Assembly (NCBI GenBank): GCA_900321635.1
Contig: ONWV01000015.1
Location: forward strand, 4,506-48,234
Length of the DNA: 43,729 bases
From: an uncultured Spirochaetaceae bacterium
Lineage (GTDB): Bacteria; Spirochaetota; Spirochaetia; Sphaerochaetales; Sphaerochaetaceae
Direction of reading: 5' to 3'
Shown: positions 1,914-38,684 of the stretch, piece after piece
Position numbering within the stretch: the stretch's first letter is position 1
Layout of the letters: each line of letters opens with the position of its first letter
Position numbers and translations under genes: made by a program
Notes under the pieces: model-generated
Seen by the model: the letters and a program-made list of their open reading frames with translations, nothing else
The model's database searches: none
Told to the model about the DNA's origin: nothing

Positions 1914-3638
1914 ATGGAAGAAAAAAGCGGTATCAGTATTATTTTCCCCAACGGTAGCTATGACAGATGCAGGACCCTCAGTGACATCACGATTCATGAC
2001 CTGGCCCTTGATGTCATCTGCAGGAGCCTCTCAGATAAGGAAAAAGAGCAGAGTCTGATTCTTGGAATCATGTCCAAGGTCACATCAGACCCCGAAGTTG
2101 TTCAGTTCCGCCTGGATGTGTTTGAGGACATCTACAAGAATCCGGCCTTCAGGGAAAAGATGCTCGAAGTTCTGGACAAGATCGAGTTTCTCAAGGATTT
2201 CGGAAGCTTCAGACGTGACAACGAAGAGGCCTCGGGAACCTGGGATCTGGTACACCGTCTTGAGGAAATCCGGGATTACATCGGCTATGTCGAATCCCTT
2301 CAGCAGTGTCTGTCTGACAGCAGCCTCAAGTCCAGAGGCCTGAAGGAACTTAAAAAGAAGATTGACGGAATCTACAATGACAGCAGCTTCACGGAGCTTA
2401 AGAAGGATATCGAGAGCCTGAAGGGCTCGACCTCGAACCTAAAGAGCGTGACGCTCGGTGTGAATCTGAATGAGCGTTTCGAGGCCAAGGAAATCGGACT
2501 GATATCGGTGAACGCCAAGAGCTTTTCGAAGTCCACGATTCTTGAGAATTTCGGAAACAGAATCGTAGGTAGGGATAAGATCAACAAGGATGAGACCTGG
2601 GACGGGAGCATGAAGTTTCAGCCGTTCTCAACCGGTGAAGGCACAACGACCGGTAGCCTCGAGGGGATGGCACGGGCAAGGATGATGGTTGAGAACCCGA
2701 TTCTGATGATGGCCATGGTGCCGGACGGAGATATGGGTAAGGATGTGACCAGCCACATGGACAGGATTACGGACCATATGCTGGCCAAGACGATGAAGGC
2801 CGTAAAGGAAGTTCTGAACAAATATGTGGGACTTTCGATTATGAACATTACGGCCCTGATTCCCGAGTTTCTGTACTACGTCAGATGGGCACAGTTTATA
2901 AAAAAGCAGCAGGATAGGGGACGGGTTTTCTGCAAGGCCTCAATTCTTGCAGATAAGGGCAAATCCCACACAAGAATGAATGCAAAGGGCTTTTACAACC
3001 TGCGCCTTGCCTGCGCCACGGAATCTCCGGCTGAGATTGTGGACAACGACCTTGTATTTGACGACGATAAGAACACATACATCCTCACCGGAGCCAACCG
3101 CGGGGGAAAGACTACGGTGACCCAAGCTGTGGGGCTTTTGTATGTTCTTGCCCAGGGTGGAATCTTCGTACCTGCCAAGGAGTTTGAGTTTACACCCGCG
3201 GACTGCATCTTCACGCACTATCCTGCGGATGAGGATAAGACGCTGGACTTCGGAAGACTGGGCGAGGAGTGTAACCGCTTCCGCGAGCTGTTTTCCCAGT
3301 GTACCAAGGATAGCCTGCTTCTTCTGAACGAGACGTTTTCCACAACATCGTTTGAGGAAGGTTTTTTCATAGCAAAGGACGCTGTCAGGGCAATATTGAA
3401 AAAGGGTACGAGGTGTATTTTCAACACCCACATGCATAAGCTTGCATCGGACATAGACAGTCTGAATCAGGAAAGCACAAAGGAGGGGGCAACGGTCAAA
3501 GCTGCATCTCTTGTTGCGCTTTCAGACGGAGGTCAGAGGTCTTTCAAGGTCTGTGTCATGCCTCCGCAGGGAATGTCATATGCAAGTGATATTGCCCGTA
3601 AGTACGGGGTGACCTATGAAATGCTTGTAAATAGCTGA
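1914..3638 (+). CDS. MutS-family ATPase (C-terminal domain type)
   Basis: A 574-residue protein whose C-terminal half is a MutS-type ABC ATPase. Walker A is GANRGGKTT (about residues 393-401). A TLDFGRLGEE stretch follows, then Walker B-like DSLLLLNE (about 466-473), then an FNTHMHKLA stretch like the H-motif region. The N-terminal half is helical and charged, like MutS lever and clamp segments, but the protein is far shorter than MutS (about 850 residues) and I see no N-terminal mismatch-binding domain. It is therefore unlikely to be the mismatch recognition protein. A Smr nuclease domain, expected in MutS2, is also absent. Walker B has Asn where Asp is usual. The start at 1914 is predicted to be leaderless. 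Confidence 0.85.
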   Translation: MEEKSGISIIFPNGSYDRCRTLSDITIHDLALDVICRSLSDKEKEQSLILGIMSKVTSDPEVVQFRLDVFEDIYKNPAFREKMLEVLDKIEFLKDFGSFRRDNEEASGTWDLVHRLEEIRDYIGYVESLQQCLSDSSLKSRGLKELKKKIDGIYNDSSFTELKKDIESLKGSTSNLKSVTLGVNLNERFEAKEIGLISVNAKSFSKSTILENFGNRIVGRDKINKDETWDGSMKFQPFSTGEGTTTGSLEGMARARMMVENPILMMAMVPDGDMGKDVTSHMDRITDHMLAKTMKAVKEVLNKYVGLSIMNITALIPEFLYYVRWAQFIKKQQDRGRVFCKASILADKGKSHTRMNAKGFYNLRLACATESPAEIVDNDLVFDDDKNTYILTGANRGGKTTVTQAVGLLYVLAQGGIFVPAKEFEFTPADCIFTHYPADEDKTLDFGRLGEECNRFRELFSQCTKDSLLLLNETFSTTSFEEGFFIAKDAVRAILKKGTRCIFNTHMHKLASDIDSLNQESTKEGATVKAASLVALSDGGQRSFKVCVMPPQGMSYASDIARKYGVTYEMLVNS

Positions 3639-3652
3639 GGCCACAGTATAAT
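3625..3652 (+). promoter_or_regulatory. Predicted promoter of the PreA-like/isomerase/dehydrogenase operon
   Basis: TTGTAA (3625-3630), 16 bases, TATAAT (3647-3652). The -35 box lies inside the last codons of the MutS-like gene. Transcription would start near 3659, and AAGGAG lies 10 bases before the ATG at 3676. Confidence 0.6.
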
Positions 3653-3675
3653 TCTTACCAAGGAGTATCCGCAGA

Positions 3676-5181
3676 ATGGAATATAAGCTAGATTTCGATG
3701 GTTCAGAAGTCAACAGATGTCTTCTTTGTTCAGACCCGCCGTGCTCAGGTGCCTGCCCGCAGGGGGCTCCGGTAGGGGATATAATGAGGTCTTTGTACTT
3801 CTCGAATGTCTCCGAGGCACATCGGAAATCCAAGAAGATAGACTGCACATACTGCAACGCCCCTTGCGTTGATGCCTGTGTTCTCAAGCACGAGAAAGTT
3901 CCTCTTGATATCAGAACCTGCATCATGAGCATCAACGATTCGGAAAAAGAGATTCCCAAACCCAAGATTTCAAAGGTGAATCTGTCCACCGATATCTGCG
4001 GAGTGAAGCTGGATAATCCGTTCCTGCTTTCGTCTTCCGTAGTAGCCAGCACCTATGACATGTGTAAGCGCGCCTTCGAAGCAGGCTGGGCCGGGGTTGC
4101 CTTCAAGACAATCTGCAACTTCCCTCAGCATGAGGCATCGCCCAGATTCAGCGCGATTCACAACCATGCCAACGCATTCTGCGGCTTCAAGAACATCGAG
4201 CAGCTTTCGGACCACAGCGTTGAGGAAAACATGCAGATTTTCAGGCATCTGAAATCCGACTTCCCCGACAAGGTCATTGTGGCATCGATTATGGGCAGCA
4301 ATGCTCAGGAATGGACACGTCTTGCAAGTGAATGTGAGAAAGCAGGCGCCTCCGTAATTGAATGCAACTTCTCCTGCCCCAACCTTGAGGACGGCGACCT
4401 TGGAGTCACCATCGGACAGTCCGAGACTCTGATCAAGCGTTTCACCCGTGCCACCAAGAGCGGAACAAGCCTTCCTGTTCTTGTGAAACTTACTCCGAAC
4501 ATCACCGACATGGTCCCCATGGCCCTGGCTGCCAAAGAGGGCGGGGCGGATGGAATTGCCGCCATCAACACAATCAACTCGATCACCGGTGTCAATATCG
4601 ATACCCTTGTGGCCGAACCTTCTGTTCGCGGAAGGTCCATAGTCGGAGGCTACTCAGGCTCCGCGGTCAAGCCCATCGCCCTGAGGTTCATATCTGATCT
4701 TGCCAAGGCAAAGGGCCTTGAGGGCCTGCACATAAGCGGCATGGGCGGAATCGAGACCTGGATCGATGCCCTTGAGTTCATTCTTCTCGGAGCAGGCAGT
4801 GTCCAGGTGACGACCTCTGTTATGCAGTACGGCTATAGAATCATAGATGACCTCATAAGCGGATTGTCTTACTACATGAAGGCCAAGGGCATCAGCTCGG
4901 TCAAGAAGCTCATAGGCGGTGCCGTGAGCTCGGTCGTGGACCACAGAAGCATAGAGCGTGGTACGATTCTTCTTCCTGTCTTTGATACGGAAAAGTGTAT
5001 TGGGTGCGGAAGGTGCTACATCTCATGCATGGACGGAGGCCATCAGGCAATAAGGTTTGACAAGGAAACCAGAAGGCCTCATCTTACAGGCTCAAAGTGC
5101 GTCGGCTGCCACCTGTGCCGTCTTGTGTGTCCCGTGAACGCTGTAGGCGTGGCTAAGAAAACAATAGGAAACAAGAACTGA
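3676..5181 (+). CDS. PreA-like Fe-S flavoprotein with extra N-terminal PreT-type Fe-S domain
   Basis: 501 residues in three parts. The N-terminus carries C15-x2-C18-x4-C23-x3-C27, the spacing of the first Fe-S site of dihydropyrimidine dehydrogenase (DPD), and a second cysteine set C57-x2-C60-x3-C64-x3-C68. The middle is a dihydroorotate-dehydrogenase-type FMN barrel closely like PreA (ECNFSCPNLE, GGYSGSAVKPIALRF, GGIETW). The C-terminus has two 4Fe-4S motifs (CIGCGRCYISC from about 441, CVGCHLCRLVCP from about 475). In DPD the N-terminal cluster domain is separated from the barrel by FAD and NADPH domains; these are missing, and no PreT gene is present. The loop that holds the DPD catalytic Cys (GLACGQ) reads GVTIGQ. 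It probably transfers electrons to or from a cyclic substrate; pyrimidine reduction is only one option. Confidence 0.85.
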   Translation: MEYKLDFDGSEVNRCLLCSDPPCSGACPQGAPVGDIMRSLYFSNVSEAHRKSKKIDCTYCNAPCVDACVLKHEKVPLDIRTCIMSINDSEKEIPKPKISKVNLSTDICGVKLDNPFLLSSSVVASTYDMCKRAFEAGWAGVAFKTICNFPQHEASPRFSAIHNHANAFCGFKNIEQLSDHSVEENMQIFRHLKSDFPDKVIVASIMGSNAQEWTRLASECEKAGASVIECNFSCPNLEDGDLGVTIGQSETLIKRFTRATKSGTSLPVLVKLTPNITDMVPMALAAKEGGADGIAAINTINSITGVNIDTLVAEPSVRGRSIVGGYSGSAVKPIALRFISDLAKAKGLEGLHISGMGGIETWIDALEFILLGAGSVQVTTSVMQYGYRIIDDLISGLSYYMKAKGISSVKKLIGGAVSSVVDHRSIERGTILLPVFDTEKCIGCGRCYISCMDGGHQAIRFDKETRRPHLTGSKCVGCHLCRLVCPVNAVGVAKKTIGNKN

Positions 5182-5182
5182 T

Positions 5183-6079
5183 ATGAAAGAATCAATTCAC
5201 AAGTATTTCCAGGTCGGAACAATTGTTTGGATGAGCTATCCCAACAGAGACGTTCTGGACGCAATAAAGACAATTGCCAGCGATGACTTTTTCGATGCAA
5301 TCGAAGTTACACAGAACAAGGATCCTCAGTCTAAGATCAAAGAGAAAGCTCTTCTTGATCAGTCCCACCTTAAAGTCTGCTACGGCGCACAGCCCAGGCT
5401 TCTTGGTCCGAAGCTTAATCCCAATGCCTTAGATGAATCCGAGCGCGCCAAGGCAGAGGCAACACTGATTGAAGCCATTGACGAGGCAGAGTACTTCGGA
5501 GCAAAGGGAATTGCATTCCTTGCAGGAAAGTGGGAAGAATCAACAAAAGATAAGGCTTATGAGCAGCTTCTCAAGACAACAAACAACGTCTGTTCCTATG
5601 CCGCAAAGAAGAACATGAACGTTGAACTTGAGGTCTTTGACTTTGACGTTGACAAGGCTGCACTGATCGGACCTGCACCTCTTGCTGCAAAGTTCGCTTC
5701 CGACGTTCGTATGAAGCATTCCAACTTCGGTCTTTTGGTTGACCTATCACATTTTCCGATCACTTTCGAGAACAGCCATCAGGTTATTACAACATGCCGC
5801 CCATACATCACACATTTCCACATCGGAAACGCTGTTGCGGTCAAGGGACGTGAGGGATACGGTGATTTTCATCAGCGCTTCGGTTTCCCAGGCTCGGCAA
5901 ATGATACCGCGGAGCTTCTTGATTTCTTCAGAGAACTCAAGGCAAACGGTTTCTTTGATGCAGACAATCCGTATGTCCTTTCAATCGAGGTCAAGCCATG
6001 GAAGGATGAGGACGAGAATATCATCGTCGCCAATACAAAGAGAGTCATCAACAGAGCGTGGGCTCTTCTTGAGGACTGA
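5183..6079 (+). CDS. Sugar phosphate isomerase/epimerase-like TIM barrel
   Basis: 298 residues of the AP_endonuc_2 (xylose-isomerase-like) TIM-barrel superfamily. Supporting segments are NVELEVFDFDVD, NFGLLVDLSHFPITF, ITHFHIGNAV and VLSIEVKPW, which place the conserved acidic and histidine metal ligands on successive strands. Members isomerise or epimerise sugars and keto-acids such as hydroxypyruvate, or cleave 3-keto-glycosides. The exact substrate cannot be read from sequence. It starts 1 base after the PreA-like stop, with a weak purine-rich site (AGGAAA) upstream, so it is co-transcribed and probably translationally coupled. The following D-2-hydroxyacid dehydrogenase suggests a keto-acid/hydroxy-acid pathway. 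Confidence 0.85.
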   Translation: MKESIHKYFQVGTIVWMSYPNRDVLDAIKTIASDDFFDAIEVTQNKDPQSKIKEKALLDQSHLKVCYGAQPRLLGPKLNPNALDESERAKAEATLIEAIDEAEYFGAKGIAFLAGKWEESTKDKAYEQLLKTTNNVCSYAAKKNMNVELEVFDFDVDKAALIGPAPLAAKFASDVRMKHSNFGLLVDLSHFPITFENSHQVITTCRPYITHFHIGNAVAVKGREGYGDFHQRFGFPGSANDTAELLDFFRELKANGFFDADNPYVLSIEVKPWKDEDENIIVANTKRVINRAWALLED

Positions 6080-6093
6080 TTGAGGATTTAAAA

Positions 6094-7062
6094 GTGAAGA
6101 TTGTAGTTCTGGACGGCTATACAGAGAATCCCGGAGATCTCTCCTGGGACGGACTTAAGGCTTTTGGCGATCTGAAGGTCTATGACAGATCTTCTCTTAC
6201 AGATCCCAATGATGCAATCAAGAGAATCGGAGATGCAGAGATTGTTTTCACAAACAAGACTCCCATCACAAAGCAGGTCTTCGATGCCTGCCCGAATATC
6301 AAATTCATCGCAGTCCTTGCAACAGGCTATAACGTTGTTGATACAGCCTATGCAAAGGAGAAGGGAATTCCCGTATCCAACGTTCCAACATACGGAACCG
6401 ACAGTGTCAGCCAGTTTGCAATAGCTCTTCTTCTTGAGCTTTGCCACCACATCGGCCATCACAGCAAGACCGTTTATGACGGAAAGTGGCAGAACCACAT
6501 TGACTGGTGCTATTGGGATTTCCCGCTTATTGAGCTTGCTGGAAAGACGATGGGAATCATCGGATTCGGTAGAATCGGTCACAGAACAGGACAGATTGCC
6601 AAGGCTCTGAACATGAACGTCATAGTCAATGATACCTTCATAAATCCGGCGTTTGAGGCAGAAGGCTTTGAGTATGTTGACAGAGACACCATCCTGGCAA
6701 AGAGCGATGTGATTGTACTTCATTGCCCGCTTTTCCCTGACACAATGGGAATCATCAACAAGGATTCGATCAAGAAGATGAAAGACGGTGTGATGATCAT
6801 CAACAACAGCCGCGGACCACTTATTGTTGAGCAGGATCTTTGTGATGCTCTTAACAGCGGAAAGGTCGCAGGTGCTGCCGTTGACGTTGTTTCAACAGAG
6901 CCGATTAAAGCTGACAACCCGCTTCTTAAGGCAAAAAACTGCATCATCACACCGCACATGAGCTGGGGCGCCAAGGAAGCAAGACAGCGCATCATGGACA
7001 TCAGCGTTGCGAACGTCAAGGCATTTTTGGACGGAAAACCTCAGAACGTGGTGAACAAGTGA
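6094..7062 (+). CDS. D-2-hydroxyacid dehydrogenase (glycerate dehydrogenase-like)
   Basis: 322 residues, normal length for the NAD-dependent D-isomer 2-hydroxyacid dehydrogenase family. The Rossmann fingerprint GFGRIG follows GKTMGII. The catalytic Arg lies in NNSRGPL, the Glu in STEPI and the His in TPHMSWG, so the triad is complete. It probably reduces a 2-keto acid such as hydroxypyruvate, or oxidises the D-hydroxy acid. Start is GTG at 6094, preceded by GAGGAT with suitable spacing; no nearby ATG fits the family N-terminus. It is the last gene of the operon beginning at 3676. Its stop is 3 bases from the convergent GntR gene, with no hairpin between. Confidence 0.9.
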   Translation: MKIVVLDGYTENPGDLSWDGLKAFGDLKVYDRSSLTDPNDAIKRIGDAEIVFTNKTPITKQVFDACPNIKFIAVLATGYNVVDTAYAKEKGIPVSNVPTYGTDSVSQFAIALLLELCHHIGHHSKTVYDGKWQNHIDWCYWDFPLIELAGKTMGIIGFGRIGHRTGQIAKALNMNVIVNDTFINPAFEAEGFEYVDRDTILAKSDVIVLHCPLFPDTMGIINKDSIKKMKDGVMIINNSRGPLIVEQDLCDALNSGKVAGAAVDVVSTEPIKADNPLLKAKNCIITPHMSWGAKEARQRIMDISVANVKAFLDGKPQNVVNK

Positions 7063-7065
7063 TTC

Positions 7066-7707
7066 TTACAGGGCAAGGCCTTCAGGGTAGGGTGACTGCG
7101 TGATGTGGTTATAAAGAAGCTCCTTGCAGTCCTTTTTCCTTCCTTTTTCCAGAATATCCAGAATCTTTTCATGCTGAGCGGTATAACTTCTCAGGTGTGA
7201 GCCGTAGATGTTCTGATTCAGTCTGAGCTGATGGATCTTGGCTCCGAGGTGCTCGTACAGGTACATCAGGGCACTGTTTTCCGAAGCGGCAACCAGCTCT
7301 GCGTGGAAGAAAGAATCATTTTCAAAAGCAAGAGCAAGATTTCCAGCTTCTAGGGCAAGCTGGCATTCTGATGCATAGCGCACAAGGTTCTTATAGTGCG
7401 CATTCAAGGAATCCTTGGTAATGAGATCAACTGCAAGGCACTCGAGGCGGATTCTTACATATGCGATGTCGGAGGCCTCGCTTTCGGTGAGGGTGGCCAC
7501 CTCCGCGTAGCAACGGGGTTTGATTGTTACAAGCCCGTATTCGCCAAGTCTTCTGACAGCTTCGCGGACGGGGGTGCGTGACACACCGAACTGCTTTGCC
7601 AACGACTCTTCGGGAATCTTTTCTCCGCCCTTGATTTTTCCGCTCAGAATCTGGGTCTTGAGCAGATTATAGATTTTGTCTGAAAGGTTCTGCGTCTTTG
7701 CTGGCAT
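7066..7707 (-). CDS. GntR-family transcriptional regulator, FadR/FCD subfamily
   Basis: 213 residues. The N-terminal winged helix contains ESLAKQFGVSRTPVREAVRR, the classic GntR recognition helix. The C-terminal part is an all-helical FCD ligand-binding domain (about residues 80-205) with the spaced acidic and histidine residues (ENDSFFHAELV, QHEKILD) that usually bind a metal and a carboxylic acid. FCD regulators commonly sense the organic acid handled by neighbouring enzymes, so the convergent hydroxyacid dehydrogenase operon is the natural target. GGAGA lies 6 bases before the ATG. A promoter and a GTATAC palindrome lie upstream. Confidence 0.9.
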   Translation of the reverse strand: MPAKTQNLSDKIYNLLKTQILSGKIKGGEKIPEESLAKQFGVSRTPVREAVRRLGEYGLVTIKPRCYAEVATLTESEASDIAYVRIRLECLAVDLITKDSLNAHYKNLVRYASECQLALEAGNLALAFENDSFFHAELVAASENSALMYLYEHLGAKIHQLRLNQNIYGSHLRSYTAQHEKILDILEKGRKKDCKELLYNHITQSPYPEGLAL

Positions 7708-29181: not shown

Positions 29182-30471
29182 ATGAGCGCACACGAGAAGT
29201 TCGGTTTCAAGTCCCTGGAGGAGATTCGGGAGAAGACTCAGGCCCTTGGTCTGAATATCAGATATGATGAGAATCTGTCTGTTCTTGGAACACCCTATAG
29301 GATCGGTCATCTTCAGGCTGCCAACAGGTTTGCCGTTCTCCCGATGGAAGGTTGCGACTCAAATACGGACGGGTCTCCGTCGAAACTGGTAACAGACCGT
29401 TATGAGAAGCTTGCCAGAGGTGGATACGGTCTGATCTGGTTCGAGGCAAATGCCATTGTCCCGGAAGGCAGGGCAAATGAGCTTCAGATGATGCTCACTG
29501 CCTCGAACGTCTCCAAGTTCCGCAGCCTTGTCCAGAATGTTGACAGCATCAGCATGAAGGAGAACGGCTTCAAGCCTGTGAAGATCCTTCAGCTTACACA
29601 TTCCGGACGTTACAGCAGGCCGGAGGGGCATCTTGCCAGACCTCTTGTACCGCAGCATGATCCCTATCTGGACAGGGGTAACGAGGTCATTGTTTCCGAT
29701 GAGTATCTGGACAGCCTTGTTCAGCGTTATGTGACAAGCGCTCTTCTTGCCAAAGAGGCAGGTTTTGACGGAGTAGACATAAAGGCATGTCACCGCTACC
29801 TGATGAGCGAACTTCTTGCCTCACACACAAGAGAGGGCCGATACGGCGGAAGCTATGAAAACAGAAGCCGTCTACTTCTTTCCGTAATCAGAGAGGTCAG
29901 AAAGGCAACGGGAGATGACTTTATAGTCGCCAGCCGTTTCAATGTGTTTGATGCACATCCGTATCCTTATGGATTTGGGTGCGACCATGACGATATGTGG
30001 AAGTTTGATCCCCAGGAGCCGGTGCGTCTTGTCAAAGACATGGTGAAAGCCGGGGTCGGACTTCTGTCGAATTCGGGTGGAAACCCTTACTACATCTATC
30101 CTCAGGTCACAAGGCCGTTCGACAAGTCAAGCTACGGCATTCCTACGCCGGAGGAACATCCGCTTGAGAGCATCCAGAGGCTGTTTTATCTGACAAGTGT
30201 GGTACAGGAGGCCGCAGGAGATGTACCTGTTGTCGGTAACGGCTACAGCTGGCTGAGAAACTTCCTGCCGTATGCTGCATCTGCGAACATCAATGACGGC
30301 AGATGCCGCTTTGTAGGTCTTGGCAGAGAAAGCTTCGCGTATCCCGATGCTCCCAAAGATGTCCTTGAGAAAGGTGCTAATAATGCGCGATCACGGCACG
30401 ACCGGATGCGTAATCAGAAACAGCAAGGTTTACATGCCGATCTACAAGAAGTTCAACGCAGAGGCGGTTGA
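29182..30471 (+). CDS. Old Yellow Enzyme-family NADH:flavin oxidoreductase, C-terminus frameshifted
   Basis: 429 residues as read. The FMN barrel is clear: RFAVLPMEGCDSNTDG, then LTHSGRYSRPEGH, then CHRYLMSELLASHTREGRYG with YENRSRLLLSVIREVR, the HR-x-L and YGGS/ENR signatures of this family. It should reduce activated C=C bonds or related substrates with NAD(P)H. The end is abnormal. After VLEKGA (about residue 399) this frame yields an Arg/Gln-rich tail. The +1 frame from 30383 to the TGA at 30488-30490 instead encodes MRDHGTTGCVIRNSKVYMP and a normal family ending that overlaps the next start as ATGA. The cysteine-rich segment expected between the two is missing, consistent with an out-of-frame deletion. 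Confidence 0.85.
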   Translation: MSAHEKFGFKSLEEIREKTQALGLNIRYDENLSVLGTPYRIGHLQAANRFAVLPMEGCDSNTDGSPSKLVTDRYEKLARGGYGLIWFEANAIVPEGRANELQMMLTASNVSKFRSLVQNVDSISMKENGFKPVKILQLTHSGRYSRPEGHLARPLVPQHDPYLDRGNEVIVSDEYLDSLVQRYVTSALLAKEAGFDGVDIKACHRYLMSELLASHTREGRYGGSYENRSRLLLSVIREVRKATGDDFIVASRFNVFDAHPYPYGFGCDHDDMWKFDPQEPVRLVKDMVKAGVGLLSNSGGNPYYIYPQVTRPFDKSSYGIPTPEEHPLESIQRLFYLTSVVQEAAGDVPVVGNGYSWLRNFLPYAASANINDGRCRFVGLGRESFAYPDAPKDVLEKGANNARSRHDRMRNQKQQGLHADLQEVQRRGG

Positions 30472-30490
30472 GAGGGAGCACAGAACATGA
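30383..30490 (+). pseudogene. Displaced native C-terminus of the OYE-family gene, out of frame
   Basis: In the +1 frame these bases encode 35 residues (MRDHGTTGCVIRNSKVYMP, then an IYKKFNAEAVEREHRT ending). This matches the expected end of this OYE subfamily, and its TGA overlaps the ATG of the next gene. No start signal precedes it, so it is probably untranslated unless ribosomes shift frame. Confidence 0.65.
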
Positions 30491-31254
30491 AAAGGACAGC
30501 AGTAGTAACCGGTGCAAGCAGAGGAATAGGTCTTGCCATAGCAAAGCAGCTGGGCCTTGACGGTATGAATGTGGTGATGGTAGCCACAGGCTCAGAAGAA
30601 AAGAACATATCTGCTATTGAACAGCTTCAGAAGAACGGAATCACAGTCGGTTATATCCAGGCTGATATTTCAAAACATGATGACAGAATCAAAATCGTCC
30701 GTGATGCTGTCAGGTTATTCGGCAGAATAGATGTCCTTGTGAACAACGCCGGTGTGGCTCCTCTTCAGAGAGCGGACCTCCTTGAGATGACCGAGGAATC
30801 CTTTGATAGGGTTGTCGGGATAAACACAAAAGGCAACATGTTCCTTACCCAGGCCGTTGCAAAGCAGATGATAGCCCAAGAGCCCTTGGACGGAAGAAAG
30901 GGTGTTATCATAAATATTTCATCCTGCTCCTCGGTGGTCTCATCCGTCAATCGTGGAGAATACTGTGTGTCTAAGGCAGGCATCTCGATGCTCACGACCC
31001 TCTACGCAGACAGACTTGCACCGGAGGGCATTCTGGTTCATGAGGTCAGGCCGGGTGTTATTGATACTGACATGACAAGCACGGTGCACGGCAAGTACAA
31101 CAAGCTGATCGATGAGGGAGTGTTCCCGATTGCACGTTGGGGAAAACCTGAGGATGTTGCCAATGCCGTAAGTGCTCTTGCGTCAGACAAGTTCATGTAT
31201 ACCACCGGAAACTACATAGATGTGGACGGAGGCTTCCACATAAGGAGACTCTAG
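30487..31254 (+). CDS. Short-chain dehydrogenase/reductase (SDR)
   Basis: 255 residues, classical SDR length. TGASRGIG (residues 8-15) is the cofactor-binding motif, NNAGVAP the NNAG motif, IINISSCSS supplies the catalytic Ser and YCVSK the catalytic Tyr and Lys; DVDGGF near the end is typical. It should interconvert a ketone and an alcohol using NAD(P). GAGAGGGAG lies just before the ATG, and the start overlaps the native OYE stop by four bases. The next gene starts immediately after the stop. This tight spacing places the OYE, SDR and flavoprotein in one pathway. Substrate is not predictable from sequence. Confidence 0.9.
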   Translation: MKRTAVVTGASRGIGLAIAKQLGLDGMNVVMVATGSEEKNISAIEQLQKNGITVGYIQADISKHDDRIKIVRDAVRLFGRIDVLVNNAGVAPLQRADLLEMTEESFDRVVGINTKGNMFLTQAVAKQMIAQEPLDGRKGVIINISSCSSVVSSVNRGEYCVSKAGISMLTTLYADRLAPEGILVHEVRPGVIDTDMTSTVHGKYNKLIDEGVFPIARWGKPEDVANAVSALASDKFMYTTGNYIDVDGGFHIRRL

Positions 31255-33192
31255 ATGGACAGCATGGCTTATGAGGTCGAACGCATCAGGGTTCGCACCT
31301 GCATTGTGGGAACAGGAGCCGCAGGCTACAATGCCGCCTGCCGCCTGAAAAAGCTGGGACAGGATGATATTCTTCTTATAAGCGAAAACCGTCTCGGCGG
31401 AACCAGCCGCAACACGGGAAGCGACAAACAGACCTACTATAAGCTTACGCTCAGCGGAGATTGTCCGGACAGTGTCTATGAGATGGCCAGGACTCTGTTT
31501 GAGGGAAAGGCTGTTGACGGAGACATTGCCTTGTGCGAGGCTGCTCTGAGCTCAAGATGCTTTCTGAGACTTGCTGAGCTGGGACTTCCGTTTCCGACTA
31601 ACCGTTATGGGGAATATGTAGGCTATAAGACAGACCACGACCCCAGAACCCGTGCAACATCAATAGGACCTTACACATCCAGAGAGATGACCCGTGCTTT
31701 GGAAAAAGAGGCCATGCAGCTAGGAGTGCCGTTTCGGGATCATCTTCAGGTGATAAAACTCATATCGGACGGAGAAAGATGCTACGGCCTCATCTGTCTT
31801 GATACAGAAAAGACCCAAAGACCTCATTATGTGGTCATTGAATCAGATAACACAGTCTACGCTACGGGCGGACCTGCCGGCATGTATGCGGACAGTGTCT
31901 ACCCTCAGAGCCAGAACGGGTCGTCCGGCATAGCTTTTGAGGCGGGGGTAAAGGGCCGTAATCTGACTGAGTGGCAGTTTGGTCTTGCGTCTGTGAAGCC
32001 AAGGTGGAACGTAAGCGGTACCTATATGCAGGCTCTGCCCAGATTTGTCTCTACCGATGCAGAAGGAAAGGATGAGAGAGAATTTCTGATGGACTTCTTT
32101 AAAAGTCCGCAGCAGATGCTTTCAAATGTCTTTCTGAAAGGCTATCAGTGGCCGTTTGATGTGCGCAAGGTTGAAGGCGGGAGTTCTGTCATAGATATTC
32201 TTGTCTACCTTGAAAGCTGTAAGGGACGGCGGGTATTTTTGGATTTCATCCATGATCCGGTTGACGGTAAATTCAGTTTTGATGGCCTGAATCCTGAGGC
32301 ATATGAGTATATTTCACGTGCTAATGCCCTTGTCAGGACACCGATTGAAAGGCTTAAGATTATGAATCAGCCGGCGGTGGATTTCTACAGGGACAAGGGT
32401 GTTGACCTTAGCAGGGAGTATCTTGAGATTGCCCTGTGCGCCCAGCATAACAACGGTGGCCTTGATTTGGATATGTGGTGGCAGAGCAATATCAAGGGTC
32501 TTTTTGCCATAGGTGAAGTTGCCGGAAGCCACGGAGTATACAGACCCGGAGGATCTGCCCTGAACGCAGGTCAGGTCGGGTCAACCCGATGTGCTCAGTT
32601 CATAGCCGGACACTCTTCGGAAAAGATTCCAAGAAAAGCGGACTTTGAGGAGCTCTGTTCACGTGCTTTGAAGGAGATGACTGCACTGTGCTCTGTCACA
32701 CGTTCGGAAAAGATGAATGTTGAGTCTCTCATCAATCATTTTGAATCAGGAATGAGCAGAAACTGCGCTGCCGTCAGGGACCCTGAGGCTATGAAAGGTT
32801 TTCTTGATGAGGTGAATGACATGATCGGGGCCTTTAAGGACAGGGTAAGGTACTGTGAAAACCGTGATCTTAAGCTTGTCTACAGGCTTAGAGACATGCT
32901 CATCTCACAGAAATGCTACATAGAGAGCATGTTGGACTACCTTTCATCCGGAGGAAAGAGCAGAGGAAGTGCCCTCTATCATGACATCAACGGAAAACGT
33001 CCCTACAAGGAGCTTCCTGATGTGTTCACATACAGCCTTGATGACGGATCAAAGGATGCATTCATTCAGGAGATGTCCTACATAGACGGAAAGTGCTCTT
33101 TCGTATGGAGGCCGGTAAGACCCATTCCCAAGGATGATGATTTCTTTGAAAACGTCTGGAGAGAATTCCGGAAGGACGGAAATATCAGATAG
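31255..33192 (+). CDS. FAD-dependent oxidoreductase, fumarate reductase/L-aspartate oxidase family
   Basis: 645 residues. The FAD fingerprint is CIVGTGAAGYNAACRL, with LGGTSRNTGSDKQTYYKL after it; YATGGPAGMYADSVYPQSQNGS and NNGGLDLDMWWQ with GLFAIGEVAGSHGVYRPGG-SALNAG match the flavin-binding and active-site segments of the FrdA/SdhA/NadB/AprA group. The C-terminal 180 residues are helical, like the cap-following domain of that group. No signal peptide or heme motif is seen, so it should be cytosolic. It would reduce or oxidise a C-C bond of an unknown substrate. It begins directly after the SDR stop (an ATG at 31264 is an alternative). Its end overlaps the convergent GH43 gene by 8 bases. 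Confidence 0.85.
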   Translation: MDSMAYEVERIRVRTCIVGTGAAGYNAACRLKKLGQDDILLISENRLGGTSRNTGSDKQTYYKLTLSGDCPDSVYEMARTLFEGKAVDGDIALCEAALSSRCFLRLAELGLPFPTNRYGEYVGYKTDHDPRTRATSIGPYTSREMTRALEKEAMQLGVPFRDHLQVIKLISDGERCYGLICLDTEKTQRPHYVVIESDNTVYATGGPAGMYADSVYPQSQNGSSGIAFEAGVKGRNLTEWQFGLASVKPRWNVSGTYMQALPRFVSTDAEGKDEREFLMDFFKSPQQMLSNVFLKGYQWPFDVRKVEGGSSVIDILVYLESCKGRRVFLDFIHDPVDGKFSFDGLNPEAYEYISRANALVRTPIERLKIMNQPAVDFYRDKGVDLSREYLEIALCAQHNNGGLDLDMWWQSNIKGLFAIGEVAGSHGVYRPGGSALNAGQVGSTRCAQFIAGHSSEKIPRKADFEELCSRALKEMTALCSVTRSEKMNVESLINHFESGMSRNCAAVRDPEAMKGFLDEVNDMIGAFKDRVRYCENRDLKLVYRLRDMLISQKCYIESMLDYLSSGGKSRGSALYHDINGKRPYKELPDVFTYSLDDGSKDAFIQEMSYIDGKCSFVWRPVRPIPKDDDFFENVWREFRKDGNIR

Positions 33193-37460: not shown

Positions 37461-38684
37461 ATGGCTGACATGCATGTTGATTGTTTTGACATGATCAATC
37501 CGTTTGTGATTGCCTCCAGTCCCGCTACAAGGGGAGCCGACAATGTGATAAAGAGCTCCGCCTGCAAGCCGGGTGCTATAACAATGCGTAATTTCGGACA
37601 CGGAATGGGCGGCGGCGGATTCTTCTATCCGTCATTCGATGCCGTACTGAAAGGACAGCCGGCATTCCACTCTCATGCGGTCGGAAAGCAGCTTCCCGAT
37701 ACAATGGCATCTCTTGATCAGTACTGTGAGGAAGTCAGGCGCGCAAGACGTGATATGTATCCTGAGACAAAGCTCTGGGCATCTGTAGGCCATTATCATG
37801 ATATTGAGAAATATCCCGATTGGAAGGACAGATGGAAGAGGGAGGCCCGCGAGGTGGTAGCCGCCGGTGCTGATGCTGTTGAGCTTCATTTCAACACACC
37901 TGGTGTCGCAACAGCCTCAGACAGGCAGTTCAACTACTACCAGCTGGTTTCAAGCTGTACAAAGATGATCAAAGAAACCATCCCCGGAACTCCTGTTATG
38001 GTGAAACTTGCCATAGAGGACTGCGACTGTCTCACGTCAATAAGAGAGGCCGTGGCTGCCGGTGCGGATGCTGTCGGTCCTACAGCCAGATGGAGAGCCT
38101 TCTACTTTGATCTTGACTATAAGTCAACACAGCCCAGACCGGGCTCGGGTTACGGCGGAACACAGGCAAACCCACTGGTGTGCTTTGAGATTGCAGACGC
38201 CCGCACAAGGGGAATCACAATTCCGATGTATGCAGGCGGAGGTGTGTTCTCATATGATCAGGCGCTCAGATACATCATGGCCGGTGCCGAGATGGTTCAG
38301 CTCGGAGCTATTGCCTGCTCAGGCGGAATCAAGGTCTGCGAGAGACTTATCAGACAGTGCTCCGGTTGGATGGATAAGAACGGCTATGCAAGTGTCAGGG
38401 ACCTTAAGGGTGTGGCTCTTGAGCTCTTCAATATGAGCGGAGATTTTTCAAAGAGAAGACAGGATAAGCTCGGTGAGGCTTACAGACTTCGTCAGCCGGA
38501 TTCTGACAAATGCATCGGATGCGGACGCTGTCAGGATGTCTGCTGGTACAAGGGAATAGAGGTCAAGGACAAGAAGGCCGAAAAGACAGAGAACTGCATC
38601 GGATGCGGTTACTGCTTCCAGGTTTGTCCGACCAAGGCGCTTGAGGTCGATGCCGCAGGCATCCTCAAGAGCGCATGGGACTGA
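37461..38684 (+). CDS. Dihydroorotate-dehydrogenase-fold protein with two C-terminal 4Fe-4S motifs (PreA-like, divergent)
   Basis: 407 residues. Residues about 10-330 follow the FMN-barrel pattern of PreA (NPFVIASSPATRGADN, ADAVELHFNTPG, VMVKLAIEDCDCLTSIREAV, IPMYAGGGVFSYDQALRYIM, AGAEMVQLGA). At the end are two ferredoxin motifs, CIGCGRCQDVC from about residue 351 and CIGCGYCFQVCP near 375. Compared with the protein at 3676 it has no N-terminal cysteine domain, and the ECNFSCP segment reads ELHFNTP, so the catalytic neighbourhood has changed. It is likely a cytosolic Fe-S flavoprotein passing electrons to a sugar-derived or cyclic substrate. It lies inside an oligosaccharide uptake operon. 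GAGAAAGGAGAG precedes its start. Confidence 0.8.
   Translation: MADMHVDCFDMINPFVIASSPATRGADNVIKSSACKPGAITMRNFGHGMGGGGFFYPSFDAVLKGQPAFHSHAVGKQLPDTMASLDQYCEEVRRARRDMYPETKLWASVGHYHDIEKYPDWKDRWKREAREVVAAGADAVELHFNTPGVATASDRQFNYYQLVSSCTKMIKETIPGTPVMVKLAIEDCDCLTSIREAVAAGADAVGPTARWRAFYFDLDYKSTQPRPGSGYGGTQANPLVCFEIADARTRGITIPMYAGGGVFSYDQALRYIMAGAEMVQLGAIACSGGIKVCERLIRQCSGWMDKNGYASVRDLKGVALELFNMSGDFSKRRQDKLGEAYRLRQPDSDKCIGCGRCQDVCWYKGIEVKDKKAEKTENCIGCGYCFQVCPTKALEVDAAGILKSAWD

Follow-up and report, generated by a model that had tools for sequence, protein, structure and literature searches.

A probable ferredoxin-dependent, FAD-less dihydropyrimidine dehydrogenase gene set apart from uracil-breakdown genes in an uncultured spirochaete

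The window (the whole stretch of 43,729 nucleotides that was analysed, from an uncultured member of the Spirochaetaceae) lies within contig C40 of a 1.83 Mb genome that is assembled in 92 contigs and is 80.6% complete, so that absences from that genome are weak evidence. Downstream of a MutS-like gene, a plus-strand open reading frame opens with an ATG at 3676 and closes with a stop ending at 5181; its product of 501 amino acids is the subject of this analysis, and its parts, together with the genes that follow it, are collected in Table 1.

Table 1. The 501-amino-acid reading frame, its component features and its downstream neighbours (positions in the window; row counts refer to an alignment of 85 homologues)
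Feature	Position	Strand	Basis and remarks
Probable PydAc-type (FAD-less) dihydropyrimidine dehydrogenase gene	3676..5181	+	501 aa; profile, alignment and structure matches
N-terminal DPD domain I / PreT-type Fe-S domain, about aa 1-100	3676..3975	+	AlphaFold pLDDT about 83-93 for aa 11-100
First N-terminal Cys set: C15, C18, C23, C27	3718..3756	+	85/85 rows; aligned with DPD C79/C82/C87/C91
Second N-terminal Cys set: C57, C60, C64, C68	3844..3879	+	all eight N-terminal Cys in 82/85 rows
FMN-type dihydropyrimidine/dihydroorotate dehydrogenase barrel, aa 102-400	3979..4875	+	PF01180, 141 bits
Codon of catalytic cysteine C234 (= DPD C671)	4375..4377	+	DPD alignment; 85-row alignment
C-terminal two-cluster ferredoxin: eight Cys, C441-C485	4996..5130	+	PF14697, 59.8 bits; 84/85 rows
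Xylose-isomerase-like TIM barrel	5183..6079	+	PF01261; one base after stop; neighbour common only to 93% sibling
D-2-hydroxyacid dehydrogenase	6094..7062	+	PF02826/PF00389; neighbour
GntR/FCD regulator, convergent neighbour	7066..7707	-	Pfam search

The first-pass annotation had seen in this protein an Fe-S domain of the kind found in PreT and in dihydropyrimidine dehydrogenase (DPD), joined to a PreA barrel and a C-terminal ferredoxin, with the FAD and NADPH domains missing; profile and alignment matches bear this out. The NCBI PreA model (NF006183; cut-off 335 bits) covers the barrel and the C-terminal ferredoxin with 534 bits, and alignment with E. coli PreA gives 52% identity over 393 amino acids (443 bits); a Pfam search places the two-cluster ferredoxin domain at residues 434-490 and finds no FAD or NADPH domain in the protein. 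The N-terminal domain is 31% identical to the N-terminus of E. coli PreT over 149 amino acids (E 1e-10), and the C-x2-C-x4-C-x3-C spacing already remarked upon (C15-x2-C18-x4-C23-x3-C27) aligns with that N-terminus as well as with the DPD cysteines. One match counts against this reading: the Pfam DPD Fe-S domain (PF14691) reaches 20 bits at the N-terminus, below its cut-off of 25.8. The AlphaFold model of the whole protein (mean pLDDT 81.1, pTM 0.78) aligns with pig DPD over residues 4-501 (460 residues, Z 36.8, rmsd 5.0), and pig DPD ranks above the dihydroorotate dehydrogenases (Z about 30) in this fold comparison. The entire arrangement is kept in full-length homologues at 49-93% identity; the architecture is thus more than chance.

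How are the N-terminal clusters held? The Fe-S ligands of DPD we take to be C79/C82/C87/C140 for one cluster and C91/C130/C136/Q156 for the other. In the alignment of 85 homologue rows, which is the source of all conservation counts, the second N-terminal set of the 501-residue protein (C57-x2-C60-x3-C64-x3-C68) is incomplete in three rows (L014, L063 and L094), and the column of the E. coli PreT glutamine is occupied in 83 of the 85 by M, L, I, F, V or N, its six commonest letters. Since glutamine is not among the common residues in that column, four cysteines are probably the ligands of the second N-terminal cluster. The annotation had allowed that the N-terminal cysteines might turn out to be unconserved in relatives; they are instead conserved, as Table 1 indicates, and the single row without the complete C-terminal eight is that of a truncated contig. 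One homologue from the window's own genus (L014, in G003; 52-55% identical) keeps the first four N-terminal cysteines and has lost C60, C64 and C68, so that the second N-terminal cluster is probably absent there; it groups in the tree with L094, from Lachnospiraceae, which is also missing part of the second set.

The annotation had further stated that the catalytic-cysteine loop of DPD lacks its cysteine in this protein, and had suggested that something other than a pyrimidine might be reduced. The statement is wrong, and the suggestion, which rested on it, is left unsupported. The loop reads NLSCP in wild-type pig DPD (NLSAP in the C671A chain, 1h7x; NLSSP in the C671S chain, 7m31) and NFSCP in the window; C671 aligns with C234, which is invariant (85/85 rows), and loss of the catalytic cysteine is rejected. 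What had been looked at was probably another cysteine of the DPD loop (LACGQ), which is missing from E. coli PreA too. DPD residues K574, T575, N609, E611, N668, S670, C671, K709, N736 and T737 are identical in the 501-residue protein and in E. coli PreA and, of the residues counted, none of the 85 rows departs from N173, E175, N231, S233, C234, N298 or T299. This retention of the mapped pyrimidine site argues against a substrate that is neither uracil nor thymine, such as an intermediate of the urate pathway, as for UacX. Such a substrate would suit a gene that lies away from any pyrimidine-degradation gene and whose product departs from DPD in the loop following NFSCP (NLED vs. HGMG); moreover, UacX of C. 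difficile is described, in the available text of PMC12507026, as similar in architecture to PydAc, the ferredoxin-dependent enzyme to be considered below. E. coli YgfK, the UacX counterpart, nevertheless gives no significant match (best E 0.087), to be set against 52% and 443 bits for PreA. On that comparison a urate-type enzyme is rejected, and a non-pyrimidine substrate of whatever kind is very unlikely; a pyrimidine reductase remains the preferred reading.

The window contains a second PreA-like gene (37461-38684, plus strand, 407 amino acids), flanked by xylose-isomerase-like and GFO/IDH-like genes. Its product is 27% identical to the 501-residue protein and reaches 120 bits with the PreA model, against the cut-off of 335; at the places of DPD N668, S670, C671, N736 and T737 it has H, N, T, A and R. 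It probably has a different substrate. Between these two PreA-like genes (29182-33192, plus strand), an Old-Yellow-Enzyme-like oxidoreductase, an SDR-like gene and a fumarate-reductase/L-aspartate-oxidase-like flavoprotein follow one another downstream of an ABC sugar-transport-like operon; the NCBIfam matches of these genes are far below curated cut-offs, and SDR and ABC are called by a look at the sequence only.

Where do the electrons come from? The FAD-less, ferredoxin-dependent architecture and its electron donor were published in 2020: purified PydAc of Clostridium chromiireducens used electrons from reduced ferredoxin or methyl viologen for the reduction of uracil (with reduced methyl viologen, kcat 0.92 per s and Km 0.13 mM; Wang et al., PMC7332683, available text), and its authors propose that ferredoxin electrons follow the cluster route that FAD electrons take in DPD. 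With this publication the novelty implied by the title of the first-pass annotation is unsupported. Its remark that no electron entry site is visible holds insofar as there is no NAD(P)H or FAD domain; the entry itself is accounted for by the retained N-terminal clusters, which are the electron route in the model of PMC7332683, so that the "missing" site is explained. Its proposal that electrons are taken from ferredoxin is well supported by analogy with purified PydAc, which has the same domain set. It is highly probable that 3676-5181 encodes a PydAc-type ferredoxin-dependent dihydropyrimidine dehydrogenase, and the 501-residue protein most likely reduces uracil with reduced ferredoxin, to go by the homologue of the same architecture. 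The genome encodes a pyruvate:ferredoxin oxidoreductase (1704 bits) and an RnfC (517 bits); no ferredoxin gene adjoins 3676-5181.

An NAD(P)H-dependent enzyme could also be thought of, with this protein as its PreA half and an unlinked GltD/NfnA-like or other Pyr_redox flavoprotein as the partner. The score with the NCBI PreA model, far above its cut-off, would fit, as would the public annotation of Selenomonas and Parabacteroides homologues as "NAD-dependent ... PreA", and three PreT-like proteins elsewhere in the genome (frames of 474, 948 and 1092 amino acids at 36, 35 and 29% identity) are potential electron suppliers. Relatives of PreT of this kind are, however, present in 60 of 61 related genomes, with or without a long PreA, and are thus not partners specific to it; the 501-residue protein itself already includes the PreT Fe-S domain; and PydAc, the published homologue, is active without a flavoprotein partner (PMC7332683, available text). 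Genes of PreT grade (E <= 2.9e-95 with the E. coli PreT query) were found in five of the 61 related genomes, all five of which also have a shorter canonical PreA-type match, the two adjoining in four of the five. The ten carriers of the long form among the 61 (G000, which is the window's own genome, G001, G002, G003, G008, G010, G016, G017, G027 and G034) have no PreT-grade gene and, among the matches listed, only PreT relatives at 27-38% identity; a search of 50 public carrier genomes, with the 61-genome search as positive control, yielded no PreT at E <= 1e-65. The possibility raised by the annotation, that this architecture might always co-occur with PreT, is not what these genomes present. 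The best PreT match in the window's own, incomplete genome has E 4.9e-53 and 36% identity (query 8-309), and the sole match in the window is the reading frame's own N-domain region, in agreement with the annotation that no PreT is nearby. An NAD(P)H-linked partner is accordingly considered improbable, and ferredoxin is preferred as the donor.

The following course of events is proposed for the ferredoxin-dependent enzyme. The N-terminal Fe-S domain would be the docking site of reduced ferredoxin, and from its two clusters electrons would move to the two C-terminal clusters and on to the FMN of the barrel, presumably in that order; by analogy with DPD, passage from N- to C-terminal clusters would occur within a dimer. 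At the FMN, uracil or thymine would be converted to its dihydro form, the proton coming from C234. Dihydrouracil would then be largely released as product, because PydC was not found (in the form specified below) and no PydB lies nearby.

Might the gene belong instead to a sugar or hydroxyacid pathway, shared with the TIM-barrel and 2-hydroxyacid dehydrogenase genes that follow it? The first of these is on the same strand at one-base spacing, and no terminator-like site was found in 3500-7300. Against this, the TIM-barrel gene is matched at three of 87 loci (the window and one sibling contig present twice) and the dehydrogenase at two of 87 (the window and one 31% match), while other carriers have different neighbour genes. 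The functional link to these downstream genes, unconserved over the 87 loci compared, is rejected, and a joint pathway is most improbable; we retain the reading of a ferredoxin-dependent pyrimidine reductase.

A search of the window and of the contig's first 4.6 kb gave no hydantoinase (PydB) and no PydC. PydB and PydC stand together beside the gene at one of 80 public loci (L064, a Clostridium), many of these loci being short-flanked: of the 78 with an intact reading frame, 47 offer at least 3 kb on both sides. On the scale of genomes, PydC of the M20 type (query from G027) was not found in nine of the ten long-form carriers among the relatives, the window's incomplete genome included, or in 44 of the 50 public carrier genomes. 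G027, a family member, has PydC, and its long-form gene lies within a full Pyd cluster; PydC-like matches in the other six public carriers are distant in two (28-30%) and close in four (67-81%), one of them with an in-frame stop. Of the 50 public carrier genomes, 21 encode a strong hydantoinase, above the family cut-off, at some locus, and in carriers with such an unlinked hydantoinase the reductase may still have a role in a pathway. The hydantoinase of the window's own genome scores 403 bits, just over the cut-off of 393. Most members of the window's family, with or without a uracil reductase, have a spirochaetal hydantoinase near the cut-off (L113, on contig C57 of G000, and L115-L126), and its neighbours, read from translated open reading frames, are presumably glycine-metabolism (glyA, gcvP), cytidine-deaminase or HAD-type genes. 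As a dedicated PydB this common enzyme is rejected, because it occurs with and without the gene and beside genes of other types; it could act on dihydrouracil.

The less usual feature is that the gene stands by itself, in the window as in the majority of its close relatives from animal guts, apart from the other genes of uracil breakdown. With the degradation pathway partly not found in most carriers, the dihydropyrimidine may be the end product. One can then think, tentatively and with the balance tilted somewhat against it, that orphan uracil reductases dependent on ferredoxin form a large group among anaerobes of the rumen and gut, spread in part horizontally and present in at least four phyla (Spirochaetota, Bacillota, Bacteroidota and Actinomycetota, by record titles). 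They would serve to dispose of surplus reduced ferredoxin (or to remove pyrimidine analogues) rather than for feeding on uracil, and would release dihydrouracil. Little literature was found on dihydrouracil or PreA in the rumen.

The public near-relatives, the homologue at 93% identity among them, belong to "Spirochaetales" MAGs obtained from the digestive tracts of ruminants. Carriers in cultivation include Butyrivibrio sp. MC2013 and WCD3002 and [Clostridium] aminophilum DSM 10710. In a tree of 83 rows the window falls in a set of 31, among Bacillota, Actinomycetota and Spirochaetota. The grouping of nine spirochaete rows (eight from the window's family and L028, Spirochaetales) as one clade is rejected (p-AU 0.00014), for a group that includes L015 and was chosen after the tree had been seen; the long branches of L015 and L023 meet in the tree, and their placement is consequently unsure. 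Phylum labels change four times on the whole tree, the least possible number being three, so that transfers between phyla, if real, were few. Several acquisitions, or transfer between phyla, are likely from these sequences, not proven. Full-length homologues are also found on Selenomonas ruminantium plasmid pSRC1 (L022, which has an IS110 transposase some 1.7 kb upstream) and in a Parabacteroides distasonis plasmid record (L023); both are annotated as NAD-dependent PreA, with no preT within 8 kb among the genes listed in an incomplete gene table. A Paludibacteraceae MAG (L051) and an "archaeon" MAG (L052), both from horse faeces, have nearly identical genes; the label or the binning of the latter is doubtful.

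What follows from this for the naming and counting of such genes? Those annotated as "NAD-dependent PreA" are named for a cofactor that is probably unused and a subunit that does not adjoin. Surveys of pyrimidine or 5-fluorouracil reduction that go by preTA pairs, or by homologues with a coverage of human DPD of at least 70%, as did that of PMC11580864 according to its available text, would miss them. The possibility that the dihydropyrimidine is an end product makes the idea of uracil as a rumen electron sink directly testable.

Among known systems, UacX of C. difficile has the FAD-less architecture in common with the window's protein (PMC12507026, available text); it belongs to the urate pathway, and its E. 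coli counterpart is the YgfK that fails to match significantly. Mammalian DPD shares domains I, IV and V, the catalytic C671 and the pyrimidine-site residues; the 501-residue protein is without domains II and III, and its family differs in the C-x2-C-x3-C-x3-C spacing of the second N-terminal cysteine set and in having no common glutamine at the PreT glutamine place. In E. coli PreTA, PreA corresponds to the barrel and C-terminal ferredoxin at 52% identity, and the N-terminus of PreT is homologous to the N-domain; PreT is a separate subunit with FAD/NADH domains, whereas the window's protein keeps only the PreT Fe-S domain, fused to PreA. PreTA, too, stands outside the degradation pathway, according to PMC7332683. 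The survey in that paper retained a sequence only if a PydB candidate lay no more than 10 open reading frames away, as its available text has it, so that orphans like the window gene fall outside it by design; a term search of its text finds none of the stems spirochaet, treponema, bacteroid and rumen, and the window's host belongs to a group, the spirochaetes, that this text does not name. The architecture is in that paper; the stand-alone context, away from uracil-breakdown genes, is not in its available text. PydAc is encoded within a Pyd cluster, in a host that can grow with uracil as its source of nitrogen, whereas the window gene is without such neighbours, and M20-type PydC was not found in its genome. 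For the rest, and by published description, PydAc and the window's protein are alike: each is a single open reading frame with two Fe-S (Fdx) domains of eight cysteines apiece, an FMN domain and no FAD or NADPH domain, each from a genome with no PreT-type gene, and both hosts are anaerobes (PMC7332683, available text).
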